DNA of 44,983 nucleotides from Candidatus Peribacteria bacterium (GTDB lineage: Bacteria > Patescibacteriota > Gracilibacteria > UBA1369 > LOWO2-01-FULL-3). The translations under genes and the position numbers were made by a program. Shown piece by piece: positions 2,068-44,983 of this stretch. Under the pieces are notes generated by a model. It was given only the letters and a program-made list of their open reading frames with translations, was not told where the DNA came from and did no database searches. Where the stretch lies: positions 1-44,983 of the forward strand of contig CALRGJ010000010.1 of the NCBI GenBank assembly GCA_943357285.1, read 5' to 3'. The stretch's first letter is position 1. Each line of letters starts with the position of its first letter.

Positions 2068-2841
2068 ATGGGTGCGAATTTTAGAGGTCTTTCCATGGGC
2101 ATACTAGGAGATTCCATAGCCATACCAGAATTGCTCACCAGTTACCTTCAAAGAAAACTGGGAGATGTCATAGCCAATATGAATGTTGGATTTGAACTTG
2201 GAGAATTTCTTCTCGGCGAAAAGCCAAAAGATAAAAGCACAAAAATAATCTTAATTCCAGGTTACGCCGCCTCTCCAAGACATTTAGAAAAACTCGCCGA
2301 CCATCTAGGCGAGAATGTAGAAACCAACCCCCATTTTGAAAAAAGAAAATTAGCAGAAAGAGTTCTGGCAGACGCCGAAATTTTAGCGAGAAATCTAATT
2401 AGAGATCAAAAACAAGTAAACATCTGCGCTCATAGCCGAGGTGGCTTAGTCACCCTCTGTGCCATGAAAATGCTAGAGGAATTACAAAAGGATGAACTGG
2501 TTAGAAAAATATTTCTCCTATCCCCAACCTCTCACGGAATAAGACCAGAAATAGCACCTATAGCCCAACAACTAGGAATAGGCGCAATCGAAGATCTTTG
2601 TTCAGGAAGCGATGCGGTAAACTATTGGCAAGGACTCAGCGCAAAAAGCAGATCAAAAATTAATATTGTCAGCCAAGAAGGAGGAGATGGATTCACCTCA
2701 CCAGATCACAGCTTTGTAGACGGCTCCACAATGTTTGTAACTCCACACTGTGGACACCAAAAAAGTATTAGAGATCCTTCAACTGATTTCTTTCGTCTCA
2801 CAATTGAACTAATACATCATTCTGTAGTAGGAACCAATTAG
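2068..2841 (+). CDS. Alpha/beta-hydrolase fold protein, lipase/esterase-like
   Basis: A 257-residue protein with an oxyanion-type strand (IILIPGYAAS, about 60-69) and a nucleophile elbow AHSRGG at 121-126, so Ser123 is the likely nucleophile. Ala replaces the usual first Gly of GxSxG. A later Asp- and His-containing segment (near PHCGH) could complete a triad. The pattern resembles lipase class 2/PGAP1-like hydrolases; the substrate is unknown. The chosen ATG has a GAGGAG at 2051-2056, one of the few Shine-Dalgarno-like sites here. The frame is open back to 1864 without ATG, GTG or TTG, and is in phase with mscS. The 3' end overlaps the next gene tail to tail by 33 bp. Confidence 0.7.
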   Translation: MGANFRGLSMGILGDSIAIPELLTSYLQRKLGDVIANMNVGFELGEFLLGEKPKDKSTKIILIPGYAASPRHLEKLADHLGENVETNPHFEKRKLAERVLADAEILARNLIRDQKQVNICAHSRGGLVTLCAMKMLEELQKDELVRKIFLLSPTSHGIRPEIAPIAQQLGIGAIEDLCSGSDAVNYWQGLSAKSRSKINIVSQEGGDGFTSPDHSFVDGSTMFVTPHCGHQKSIRDPSTDFFRLTIELIHHSVVGTN

Positions 2842-3384
2842 AATTCTTCCTAGAATAAATTGGAACACCATATAGGCCATTACACCAACTACTAAAACAA
2901 TAACGGCATTTTGTTGTGAGAGCTTTCCCCATTCCAAAAACAAATGGTAAGCAACGGCAAACATCCAAACCACACCTACTGTCCAAACCAAATCAAATAA
3001 TCCGGTAGGCTCAATAAGTCCAGTCAAAGCCAACAAAAATGGAATAGCACTCAACCACAAAAACACTGAAGAATAAGCCAAAACTTTAAAAAATGCCCAA
3101 TGACCATGCTTGCTCTCAAACATTCTTTCAGCAGCATAACTCATAGCAAAAATAGCGCCTACTATCGCCAAAGAAGGAATAACCATTGGCCAGAAAATAA
3201 ATCTTGAAGCGATAGAACCAAAGCCTGACGGAAACAACATTGAAGACAAAAGAAGATTTAAAACCGGTGGAACAGCCAACATAATAAAACCCCATTTTTT
3301 AGCTCCGCTACGAGCAGCAACAGCCGCCATAGTAGGCTTATCAAACTTTAAAATTTTAACACCGTCTTTAATTTCATTAATCAT
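2809..3384 (-). CDS. Yip1-like integral membrane protein
   Basis: A 191-residue protein whose N-terminal 30 residues are soluble, followed by about five hydrophobic helices. The layout and the mid-protein pattern (a polar stretch before helix 3, then a Pro-containing helix pair) resemble the Yip1 domain superfamily. That family is found in many bacteria without a settled function. It lies 24 bp downstream of the lipoprotein gene on the same strand, so cotranscription is likely. The family call comes from overall character, not from a catalytic motif; an unassigned polytopic membrane protein is the alternative. Confidence 0.55.
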   Translation of the reverse strand: MINEIKDGVKILKFDKPTMAAVAARSGAKKWGFIMLAVPPVLNLLLSSMLFPSGFGSIASRFIFWPMVIPSLAIVGAIFAMSYAAERMFESKHGHWAFFKVLAYSSVFLWLSAIPFLLALTGLIEPTGLFDLVWTVGVVWMFAVAYHLFLEWGKLSQQNAVIVLVVGVMAYMVFQFILGRILIGSYYRMMY

Positions 3385-3408
3385 AAAAATATTAAATTAA
3401 AAATATAA

Positions 3409-3867
3409 TTAAACTGGAGCTTCTACAGTTAACAACTTTAAAATATCGTCATAGAAAGATTTTAAAGTCTGGATATTCTTAGTATCATCCGGAGATACCG
3501 CCATGCTATAAACAGTCTTATCTGCACCTTCTACCAAAAATGTCATTGAAACAGGATCAGCAACCAAATAAGGATCTGTAGGAATTTTATAATTCTTCAC
3601 ATACTTAGTTTCAGTCTCAAAACGATCAAAATATTCTCCACCCAACTGTCCTGCAAAATCCACAGTCTTCTGTTTTTTATCAGAAAAATCTTTTTTATAA
3701 TCCACGGTCAAAGTACGCTTTGAATATTCCGGAGTCAGATTCAATACCGCCACACCACTTGGATCTCTCAACGTAATGGCAAACTTAGCCACATCCCTTG
3801 ATCCAAAACAAGCAGTCAAACCAACTGTCATCAAGGTAACAATCGCAAAATATAAAAATTTTTTCAT
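3409..3867 (-). CDS. Predicted lipoprotein of unknown function
   Basis: The 152-residue product starts with a basic n-region, a hydrophobic core and the lipobox LTAC, with the lipidated Cys at residue 20. The mature part is polar with alternating beta-like segments. It includes a region reading like a lipoprotein fold that tracks a bound peptide or lipid, but I cannot name a family. It would sit on the outer face of the cytoplasmic membrane. A lipoprotein implies prolipoprotein processing in this cell. It precedes the Yip1-like gene and follows the bL25 terminator. Confidence 0.7.
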   Translation of the reverse strand: MKKFLYFAIVTLMTVGLTACFGSRDVAKFAITLRDPSGVAVLNLTPEYSKRTLTVDYKKDFSDKKQKTVDFAGQLGGEYFDRFETETKYVKNYKIPTDPYLVADPVSMTFLVEGADKTVYSMAVSPDDTKNIQTLKSFYDDILKLLTVEAPV

Positions 3868-30483: not shown

Positions 30484-31200
30484 ATGGGCAACGATAAACT
30501 TCCACCAGAAAAACAACTTCCACCACGGGATCCGGAAAACACACCTGAGAGACTGCCAAATGCACGCGATGAAATAAAAAAAGAAGCACAAAAACTTCGC
30601 AAAGGCTTAGACGTAGAGGAAGAAAAAATTCCGTGGGGAAAAGTGGTCTTTGACGGTTTTGGCAAAGTGGAATGGGATAAAGCTACAAATAAACTTACCA
30701 TGGCTCCTAAGGCTTCTACTCAAAAACGAAAAGATCCAAAAGAATTTCAGGAAACTCACGCCTGCCTAGTAATAAGTGATGAAAAATTTAAACAGCCTTT
30801 TGCTCTTAACTATACAATGAAAACTACAAAACAGCTTCGTCAAAACGAACCTGCAAATAACTGGGAAGTAGGATGGGCAGTTTTTGGATACAAAGACGAT
30901 GGAAAGTTTAAATACACAATGCTAAAACCTGAAGGTTATGAAATGGGAGAATCACTTCTCAACGACGCTCAAGAATTTCTTGATGAAGCATCGGACAAAT
31001 TCCCAATCAACAAAGACTACAAAGTAGAAATGAAAGTTGAAAACGATACAATTTACATGAGTGTGAATGGACGCAAATATCCACCTTACAAAATGGTCGG
31101 AGAAGGAAAAAAGGACCACCTCACCGCAGACGGTAAAATAGGATTCTACACCGAAGATGCAGAAGTGGAAGTAAAGGATATCAAGATGGAACAACTATAA
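30484..31200 (+). CDS. Hypothetical protein with a DUF1080/LamG-like beta-sandwich
   Basis: The 238 residues begin with a Pro-rich charged stretch without a signal peptide. From about 50 to the end the sequence is beta-rich. It contains the pattern YKVEMKVENDTIYMSVNGR followed by GKIGFYTEDAEVEVKDIKM. That ending is typical of concanavalin-like sandwich domains such as DUF1080 (3-keto-disaccharide hydrolase) and related carbohydrate-binding folds. Catalytic residues cannot be assigned. The lack of a signal peptide is odd for a glycan-binding role. It ends 2 bp before the convergent gene at 31203. Confidence 0.6.
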   Translation: MGNDKLPPEKQLPPRDPENTPERLPNARDEIKKEAQKLRKGLDVEEEKIPWGKVVFDGFGKVEWDKATNKLTMAPKASTQKRKDPKEFQETHACLVISDEKFKQPFALNYTMKTTKQLRQNEPANNWEVGWAVFGYKDDGKFKYTMLKPEGYEMGESLLNDAQEFLDEASDKFPINKDYKVEMKVENDTIYMSVNGRKYPPYKMVGEGKKDHLTADGKIGFYTEDAEVEVKDIKMEQL

Positions 31201-43663: not shown

Positions 43664-43763
43664 ATAGTATCTGTTAGGCTAGTTGCTAAAATGCCTAAAA
43701 TATGTTATTATATACGTGTCCTTAAGTCGTCGGAATTATACAAGAATATCCACGAATTGAGAA

Positions 43764-43792
43764 TTGAAAAAAAATCAAAATTCTGCTATACT
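43764..43792 (+). promoter_or_regulatory. Plus-strand promoter in the gene-poor region
   Basis: TTGAAA (43764-43769), a 17-base spacer ending in TGC, and TATACT (43787-43792). It is among the best matches in the window yet faces no evident protein gene, so it may drive a noncoding RNA. Confidence 0.6.
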
Positions 43793-43868
43793 TACTCAAT
43801 TACCTCGAACTGGCTCTAGGCCACATATAGCAATTTCGTTCCTTAAAAACCAAAACGCCTACTCCTAT

Positions 43869-43966
43869 TCGATAAAGTGAGGAGTATCGGGGCAGAAAAA
43901 CAAAAATAAAACATTTGCAGCCGCTTAGCGGCCTTCGTTTCCGCCCCACTACTCCTTACTTTTCGA
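43869..43966 (+). ncRNA. Long nested stem-loop, candidate structured RNA
   Basis: AAAGTGAGGAGTATCGGGGC (from 43874) pairs with GCCCCACTACTCCTTACTTT (to 43962) with three or four mismatches or wobbles. TCGA extends it on both sides (43869-43872 and 43963-43966). The loop contains a GC hairpin GCCGC-TTA-GCGGC. The left arm can instead pair locally (TACTCCT at about 43860 with AGGAGTA at 43880-43886), so two exclusive folds exist. Orientation and function are unknown; a minus-strand terminator role is also possible. Confidence 0.45.
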
Positions 43967-44298
43967 TGACAGCCAACACTGTCACCCTAAAGCATCCTTC
44001 ATTACAAAAATTTTTTGGAGGAAAAAATAAAAACAAACTCAACAAAAACAAACCTGCTCTTTCGCCTCAAAAACGGAAGGCAACCCAAACAAACAAAAAT
44101 AAAAAAGAACGGACGGTGAACAACGTTCTCAAAAAAAACACCAAAGAACGGTAGGGAGGCGCTTCGTCCACCAAAATTGACGAACAAACACCGCGAGAGA
44201 TGAACTGTTGGTTTCTCTTGCACCACCGCTCTACTAGAGTATTTCTCAGCCATATAAAATTGCGCTGATAGGAATCCTAGCTACATGAGCGATACGTT

Positions 44299-44369
44299 GG
44301 GACACTTAGTCCACCTCTGACTTTCACCATTTTTAAATGGTTGTCACGTGAAATTTGATTAGGTGTCCC
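44299..44369. ncRNA. 13-bp closing stem with inner hairpins, downstream of the reverse transcriptase
   Basis: GGGACACTTAGTC (44299-44311) pairs along its full length with GATTAGGTGTCCC (44357-44369), allowing two G-T wobbles. Inside, TTTCAC (44322-44327) pairs with GTGAAA (44348-44353), and ACCATTT with AAATGGT (44326-44341) is an alternative. It begins 13 bases past the reverse transcriptase stop. On the plus strand it ends in TTATTTTG. It may be a terminator or part of the element's RNA. Confidence 0.45.
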
Positions 44370-44381
44370 TTATTTTGTAAA

Positions 44382-44983
44382 CTAGAGCAATTTTTCATAA
44401 ACCAACCAGCTGAAATACTTTTCAGCTTTTTTGTTGCAATGCTGTTTTATCAATCCGCTGTAGCTGGAGAGATTGCTGGAATTTAGCCTAGTCTGTGCGC
44501 GCATAAAGCTTCTTTTGTTTAAATTTCTACCGTAGGACCAGAATTTTATGCCGAGAAAACGTAGGCCTTGTGAAGGTTTAAGGATTTTGTCGCTTTTTGG
44601 ATTAACGGTTAATTTTAATTCGCTGCTCAGAAAATCGACAGTGCGAGCGCGAAATAACTTCAATTTTTCCAGATCATTTTCCACAATAATAAAATCATCA
44701 CCGTAGCGCAAATAAACTTTCGCGCCTAATTTGTGTTTCACAAATCTATCCAATTCATTCAAATAAATATTGGCGAAAATTTGGCTGGTGAGATTCCCTA
44801 TTGGCATGCCGATTTTGTAGCCGCCCACCGCATTGAAACTAAAAATTATTTCTTTCAACAAATTTAAAGTTGTAATATCTTTGATGCGAAATAAAAGAAT
44901 TTTAAGCAAAATATCTTGATCCACACTGTCAAAAAACTTTTTCACGTCACATTTCCAGACGTAGCAAGATGGCTTAAACAAGC
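44382..44983 (-). CDS. Reverse transcriptase, DGR-like, partial (N-terminus beyond the window)
   Basis: About 200 C-terminal residues are visible. Finger/palm motifs are KCDVKKFFDSVDQDIL, then PIGNLTSQIFANIYLNELDRFVKH, then the catalytic box YLRYGDDF. LRFLGIKFW and a short thumb with SSYSGLIKQH follow. No maturase (X) or endonuclease domain follows the thumb, which argues against a group II intron protein. The GNLTSQ-FAN-YLNELD-FVK string is typical of reverse transcriptases of diversity-generating retroelements and close relatives. YGDD rather than YVDD is a small deviation. Accessory protein, template and target genes are not seen here and would be expected on the right. Confidence 0.8.
   Translation of the reverse strand, partial: LFKPSCYVWKCDVKKFFDSVDQDILLKILLFRIKDITTLNLLKEIIFSFNAVGGYKIGMPIGNLTSQIFANIYLNELDRFVKHKLGAKVYLRYGDDFIIVENDLEKLKLFRARTVDFLSSELKLTVNPKSDKILKPSQGLRFLGIKFWSYGRNLNKRSFMRAQTRLNSSNLSSYSGLIKQHCNKKAEKYFSWLVYEKLL

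Follow-up and report, generated by a model that had tools for sequence, protein, structure and literature searches.

DGR activity is probably phase-variable through slipped-strand mispairing, the ON or OFF state being set by the number of units in a simple repeat; from the loci compared here we put the probability of this reading at roughly 0.84. A broader formulation is likely too, if held with somewhat less assurance: in Patescibacteria, targeted hypermutation would be under stochastic genetic control via a slippable repeat in the RT (reverse transcriptase) or avd gene of most DGRs, and in a subset of these, avd and RT overlap head-to-head and would both be toggled by a single poly-G/C tract situated there, a lineage thus alternating between generating variants and freezing a successful one.

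Across Patescibacteria the length of the repeat unit is indivisible by three, and repeat number decides whether a single full-length protein can be read; in the proposed mechanism, slippage during replication would alter that number. In the ON state RT and Avd would both be produced and the target mutated at the adenines of the TR; in the OFF state full-length RT or Avd would be missing and the target sequence frozen and inherited. A clonal population could in this way alternate between diversification and fixation of the target, with some lineages switching avd and RT jointly through the single tract in their overlap. The DGR would then be a mutator governed by a contingency-locus switch. Because RT and Avd are both needed in phage BPP-1, where loss of either abolishes retrohoming (PMC12875486), OFF alleles would be expected to stop retrohoming.

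The DGR of the Window Genome Is Split between Two Contigs

The window analyzed here is an entire contig (C10; 44,983 bases), one of 25 that make up the 1.21-Mb genome. Its last ORF is open at the contig end and matches the Pfam model RVT_1 (e value 1.5e-13). The encoded piece begins shortly ahead of motif A, extends to the C-terminus, and includes the active site YGDD and, within LTSQIFAN, the DGR "SQ" dipeptide, both residues of which are invariant across 30 aligned RTs; this dipeptide is described as a hallmark of DGR RTs (PMC3521204). By sequence the nearest solved structure is the Bordetella DGR RT (8ub7; e value 3e-19), ahead of group II RTs (2e-13), and the model of the intact RT of a close relative (L038; mean pLDDT 91) likewise has 8ub7 as its top fold match (e value 2.7e-20, TM 0.81). 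The RVT_1 match and this ranking above group II RTs bear out the resemblance to DGR enzymes noticed earlier from the DNA alone. Against the NCBIfam models for group II, retron, Drt, and Abi RTs, the window RT scored far under every cut-off, and we rejected a group II intron, retron, Abi, or DRT identity because the top match both in sequence and in fold is a DGR RT and because TR, VR, and avd are present. The ORF is therefore a genuine DGR RT truncated by the contig end, and the TTG "start" listed for it is spurious, produced by that cut. Named relatives of this RT come from Candidatus Peregrinibacteria/Peribacteria in the Patescibacteria; the host is a Peregrinibacteria-like member of the Patescibacteria, and the DGR is chromosomal.

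Using the RT N-half and the VR protein of the closest relative (L036) as queries, we located the remainder of the DGR in the terminal part of contig C17 (19,449 bases), which carries the target gene, VR, TR, avd, and the N-half of the RT (table 1). Over the first 110 nt, TR and VR of this genome differ at 18 template adenines and at one other position (G-to-T); a complete DGR does exist. The Avd-like gene that it proposed to look for was also found: in L036 the product matches PF22296 (bAvd) above the cut-off (e value 4.4e-10), and the avd of the window genome itself was assigned on C17 by synteny and sequence reading. The uncut order in L036 is target gene with VR, TR, avd on the opposite strand and head-to-head with RT, RT, the RNA gene described below, and gmk. 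A divergent avd upstream of RT was seen for 136 ORFs in cellular loci, unlike the viral DGRs scanned, in which avd lies upstream on the RT strand (59 ORFs). The target protein has no Pfam domain above cut-off, and structure prediction, tried with two sequences, gave models of low confidence (pLDDT 33.5). Between ssb and the target gene, L036 additionally has a minus-strand ORF (2601-3677) whose C-terminal stretch looks HNH endonuclease-like by eye and which is perhaps a mobile element beside the DGR.

Table 1. Coordinates of the DGR and of the neighbouring RNA gene in the window genome (G000); C10 is the window
Feature	Contig	Position	Strand	Basis or remark
Target ORF	G000:C17	17518-18405		~295 aa; VR at 3' end
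VR	G000:C17	18286		TR/VR alignment
TR	G000:C17	18692		TR/VR alignment
RT N-half	G000:C17	19121-19447		Search with L036 RT N-half
gmk (guanylate kinase)	C10	43070-43663	-	Conserved neighbour of the RNA
Promoter TTGAAA-17-TATACT	C10	43764-43792	+	Read from sequence; kept in homologues of the RNA
Structured non-coding RNA between ssb and gmk	C10	43797-44376	+	Fold, homologues, synteny, alignment
A-rich linker and H-type pseudoknot (GAACG/CGTTC, GGTG/CACC) inside the RNA	C10	44090-44137 (limits approximate)	+	
Terminal hairpin GGGACAC...GTGTCCC, then TTATTTT	C10	44299-44376	+	Sequence, fold, alignment
DGR RT C-terminal half	C10	44382-44981	-	Cut by contig end
Contig end	C10	44970-44983	-	RT breaks off here

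A Frame-Shifting Repeat inside the RT Gene

The RT of L036 occupies two reading frames, and the change of frame is located at an (AC)10 array; in relatives the frame-shifting repeat immediately precedes the part of the gene that C10 carries. About 95 nt of L036, this array included, span the gap equivalent to the ends of C17 and C10. In another genome (G009) the RT gene is interrupted within this array, and each of the two contig ends carries repeat units. Because the L036 array and the G009 cut fall at the equivalent site, we place the C17/C10 break of the window genome at this tract site, and the tract itself would lie in the assembly gap.

Arrays at this site differ among relatives. Reading the states from assemblies, in which repeat length can be misassembled, the gene is OFF with (AC)10 in L036 and L037, (AC)14 in L014, (CA)7 in L040, (CT)18 in L019, and C8 in L043, and ON with (AC)13 in L038 (344 aa) and (AC)11 in L041 (339 aa); a (CA)15 array also occurs at the site. 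The two halves of the RT are thus in different frames in most of these genomes and in one frame in two, and related genomes hold in-frame and out-of-frame alleles that show no lesion other than the tract. Five genomes of the window's family have no (AC) array of at least seven units besides the one in the RT. The genome of L038 encodes a second DGR RT (L027) that is without the repeat insert. In the L038 model the loop encoded by the repeat (residues 130-143) falls below pLDDT 50, and such a disordered loop is compatible with tolerating in-frame changes of length. A same-genus genome (G003) shows a different arrangement: the C-terminal part of the RT is present alone (L042 6001-6432 and L018), joined to unrelated upstream DNA, and its DGR is rearranged or lost.

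Tracts Are Widespread in DGRs of Patescibacteria

We surveyed 253 distinct RT genes, 29 of which need two frames to be read. In 25 of the 29, a tract lies where the two ORFs overlap, which means that repeat number alone could restore a single frame; in L242 the tract lies between the two aligned halves. Three sites recur, namely two loops of the RT, one ahead of motif A and one between motifs A and B, together with the N-terminus of avd. Frequencies were taken from loci unselected for broken frames, excluding L231-L260, which had mostly been chosen for short frames. Either the RT body or the N-terminus of Avd carries a tract in 40 of 58 Patescibacteria loci from the genome collection and in 34 of 54 loci from the phylum sample, these 54 unpicked loci being biased towards full-length RTs, compared with 1 of 12 in DPANN archaea, 0 of 3 in other bacteria, and 0 of 71 among DGR RTs on viral contigs (Fisher p values of 1e-19 and 7e-17 for the two Patescibacteria sets against the viral one). 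About a third of Patescibacteria DGRs have no tract at the thresholds used.

The tracts are concentrated at DGRs and are uniformly frame-shifting. Their density is 0.65 per kb in the RT zone versus 0.027 per kb in the remaining long ORFs at these loci, and all 108 tracts counted have a unit that is not divisible by three, with zero tri-, hexa-, or nonanucleotide repeats. In 30 genomes every (AC) array of at least seven units is found at a DGR RT or avd, and among the (GA) arrays of at least seven units that were listed, roughly two thirds are at DGRs. When the loci are labelled by tract position (none, 5', site 1, or site 2), the label changes at least 35 times on the RT tree, a FastTree tree with many weak nodes; tracts therefore seem to arise or move repeatedly and to keep striking RT and avd.

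Longer units also occur in or beside DGR RTs, including (GTCA)23 (L068 5903-5994), (AGCC)12 (L106 6146-6193), (CTTG)8 (L247 913-944), (CTGTC)7 (L101 5560-5594), and (GATG)13 just past the RT stop codon (L058 6642-6693). The single case among the 12 DPANN RTs is a Woesearchaeota DGR RT with an in-frame G9 in the RT body (L082 6123-6131), which is perhaps the same device in archaea. Several long (GA)n/(CT)n arrays lie away from the listed DGR RT matches: L315 (G207:C11:4133 and 6408), L303 (G022:C96:5-30), G174:C6:68861, G174:C13:32370, G179:C1:90196, G216:C47:9460, G362:C75:3435, and G362:C82:232. These arrays, with a check for RT and avd run for L303 and L315, are candidates for other phase-variable genes or for missed DGR fragments.

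Tracts at the Start of avd

Sixty tracts are located in the N-terminus of avd, where they encode PPP, HTHTHT, SLSLSL, or RERERE ahead of the conserved body. For 59 of them an upstream ATG within 90 nt is in a frame open into the tract, compared with 50% at random positions. That ATG is in the Avd frame in 13 cases and in another frame in 46, making the ON class (13/59) rarer than the expected one third. At about half of these loci the RT start comes after the tract, and only avd would switch. At the remainder the RT has no in-frame start past the tract, so one tract would govern avd and RT together; in L064, L067, and L098 the shared tract reads in frame on both strands.

Selection on OFF Copies and Alternative Explanations

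Both halves of the OFF copies of RT are under purifying selection (dN/dS 0.04-0.15). Furthermore, 21 of the 29 broken loci have a nearby TR/VR pair in which non-A mismatches number no more than one in every 50 nt, and this adenine specificity suggests that their RTs were functional recently. It is improbable, then, that the broken RTs are decaying pseudogenes in which repeats merely happen to be the easiest places for a frameshift. Inactivation of DGR RTs by frameshift, nonsense mutation, or insertion is reported by Schillinger et al. 2012 (PMC3521204), and a few of our loci do carry further lesions: a second frameshift in L246, a deletion in L033, a nonsense codon in L020, and the rearranged RT of L018/L042. 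Decay, however, does not account for 25 of 29 breaks falling inside a tract, for dN/dS of about 0.1 on either side of the break, for TR/VR pairs almost free of non-A changes, or for tracts that persist at the same site across divergent lineages, ON copies included.

A frame change could also be bypassed during expression, with programmed ribosomal or transcriptional slippage yielding a fixed fraction of full-length protein and the repeat acting as a dosage device. Homopolymer tracts such as poly-G/C can promote slippage, and many alleles are out of frame. Tracts in the RT body, however, are mostly AC, GA, CT, or tetranucleotide repeats, none of which is, to our knowledge, a slippery site; their lengths vary widely, with in-frame alleles among them, and both the kind of unit and its location vary among related RTs, so that we regard a dosage device as no more probable than decay. 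Less probable still is that the frame split is an artefact of assembly or sequencing. Short-read assemblers do break or miscount at repeats, and two of the RTs are cut exactly at the repeat site, but errors of this kind change the length of an array; they can neither create long arrays at conserved positions in most Patescibacteria DGRs (0/71 in viral DGRs) nor make every unit frame-shifting. A reversible switch by slipped-strand mispairing remains our preferred reading.

A Conserved RNA Gene between ssb and gmk

The earlier note had read 44041-44160 as a DGR template RNA on the strand opposite to the enzyme, citing 59 A and 12 T and a good plus-strand promoter that points into the block. The count is exact, and few stretches of the window are comparable, ten overlapping 120-nt segments on either strand reaching the same A-rich/T-poor threshold; the promoter is conserved among homologues (table 1). 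Under relaxed thresholds, a further strongly A- or T-skewed stretch appears near 30506 (30506-30626). A DNA search of the 1.21-Mb genome found no near-repeat of the block with adenine-biased mismatches, and a scan allowing only adenine mismatches against the DGR-bearing end of C17 gave no partner. The actual TR/VR pair sits on C17, with the TR on the RT strand and on the 5' side of the RT, as in relatives.

The 718 bp described as having no clear gene hold a conserved structured RNA gene instead. Of 79 related genomes, 21 have a homologue of the block 43680-44380, and most of those with both flanks available have the order ssb-RNA-gmk; this conservation spans the family and reaches into parts of the order. 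The stretches around these homologues gave no RT match except in the window genome and G002, where the DGR lies between ssb and the RNA. Compared with the closest relative, the RNA is 86% identical, with unchanged stretches of about 100 nt, while the neighbouring RT has diverged strongly at its synonymous positions (dS about 0.85). Its fold is more stable than that of shuffled sequence (z of -5.68 on the plus and -3.98 on the minus strand). In the alignment of homologues the terminal hairpin with its T-run, a probable terminator, is conserved, as is the A-rich core. The pseudoknot covaries, being paired in 97.2% of cells with five double changes, versus at most 46% in slid controls.

Candidate identities for this region were examined as well. 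Matches to Rfam at loose thresholds were at chance level, and ARAGORN found nothing in the region. RNase P and tmRNA were rejected, being located elsewhere in the genome (G000:C19 and G000:C5, respectively). Two ORFs over the A-rich block, one of 83 aa on the minus strand without a Pfam match and one of 79 aa on the plus strand, were rejected as genes because conservation there follows the RNA. The RNA of ~580 nt may represent a novel class of RNA particular to this lineage. It is unrelated to the DGR and is found in relatives without a DGR at the site. With the adenine-biased repeat absent from the assembled genome, the true TR/VR pair on C17, the RNA kept between ssb and gmk in relatives showing no RT on the stretches compared, and the A-rich core conserved rather than variable, we assign the template reading next to no probability.

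Relation to Known Systems and Implications

The DGRs described here share the RT family, adenine-specific TR/VR, Avd, and a chromosomal target with the Patescibacteria DGRs of clade 2 (Roux et al. 2021, PMC8144416), and add to these, as published, a frame-shifting repeat in RT or avd. Bordetella phage BPP-1 (bRT-Avd, PDB 8ub7) offers the best match for the predicted RT fold, and differs in that our scan of viral DGR RTs yielded no tract (0/71). With simple-sequence contingency loci they have in common non-triplet repeats in coding sequence, the presence of both ON and OFF alleles, and purifying selection on both parts of the gene. Contingency loci usually switch a surface antigen, an adhesin, or a modification enzyme, whereas the gene switched here would be a dedicated mutator. 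A broken RT alongside VR and TR that differ only at adenines is likewise described by Schillinger et al. 2012 (PMC3521204), where, in the portion available to us, the breaks appear as isolated recent inactivations with no tie to repeats or reversibility.

We found no regulation of DGRs by repeats in the published DGR literature searched, and a full-text search of the open literature, the coverage of which does not extend to the principal paper on DGRs of Patescibacteria (Paul et al. 2017), returned no report tying DGR RT or avd to phase variation. Both the retroelement and the type of switch are known; their combination is not described in the literature searched.

According to Roux et al. 2021 (PMC8144416), target residues change at a slower pace in the cellular DGR clades, that of Patescibacteria included, than in the viral clades; these authors could not decide between a more tightly controlled RT and stronger selection as the explanation. 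How DGRs are regulated in the wild was named an exciting frontier by a study from 2026 (PMC12875486). Switching of RT or avd by a repeat would provide a concrete and readable control for DGRs. If the switch operates as proposed, tract length in any metagenome would reveal whether the mutator can be ON, and DGR RTs of this phylum recorded as "truncated" or "pseudogene" may be reversible alleles. A second-order mutator, slippage, would then govern a first-order one, retrohoming.
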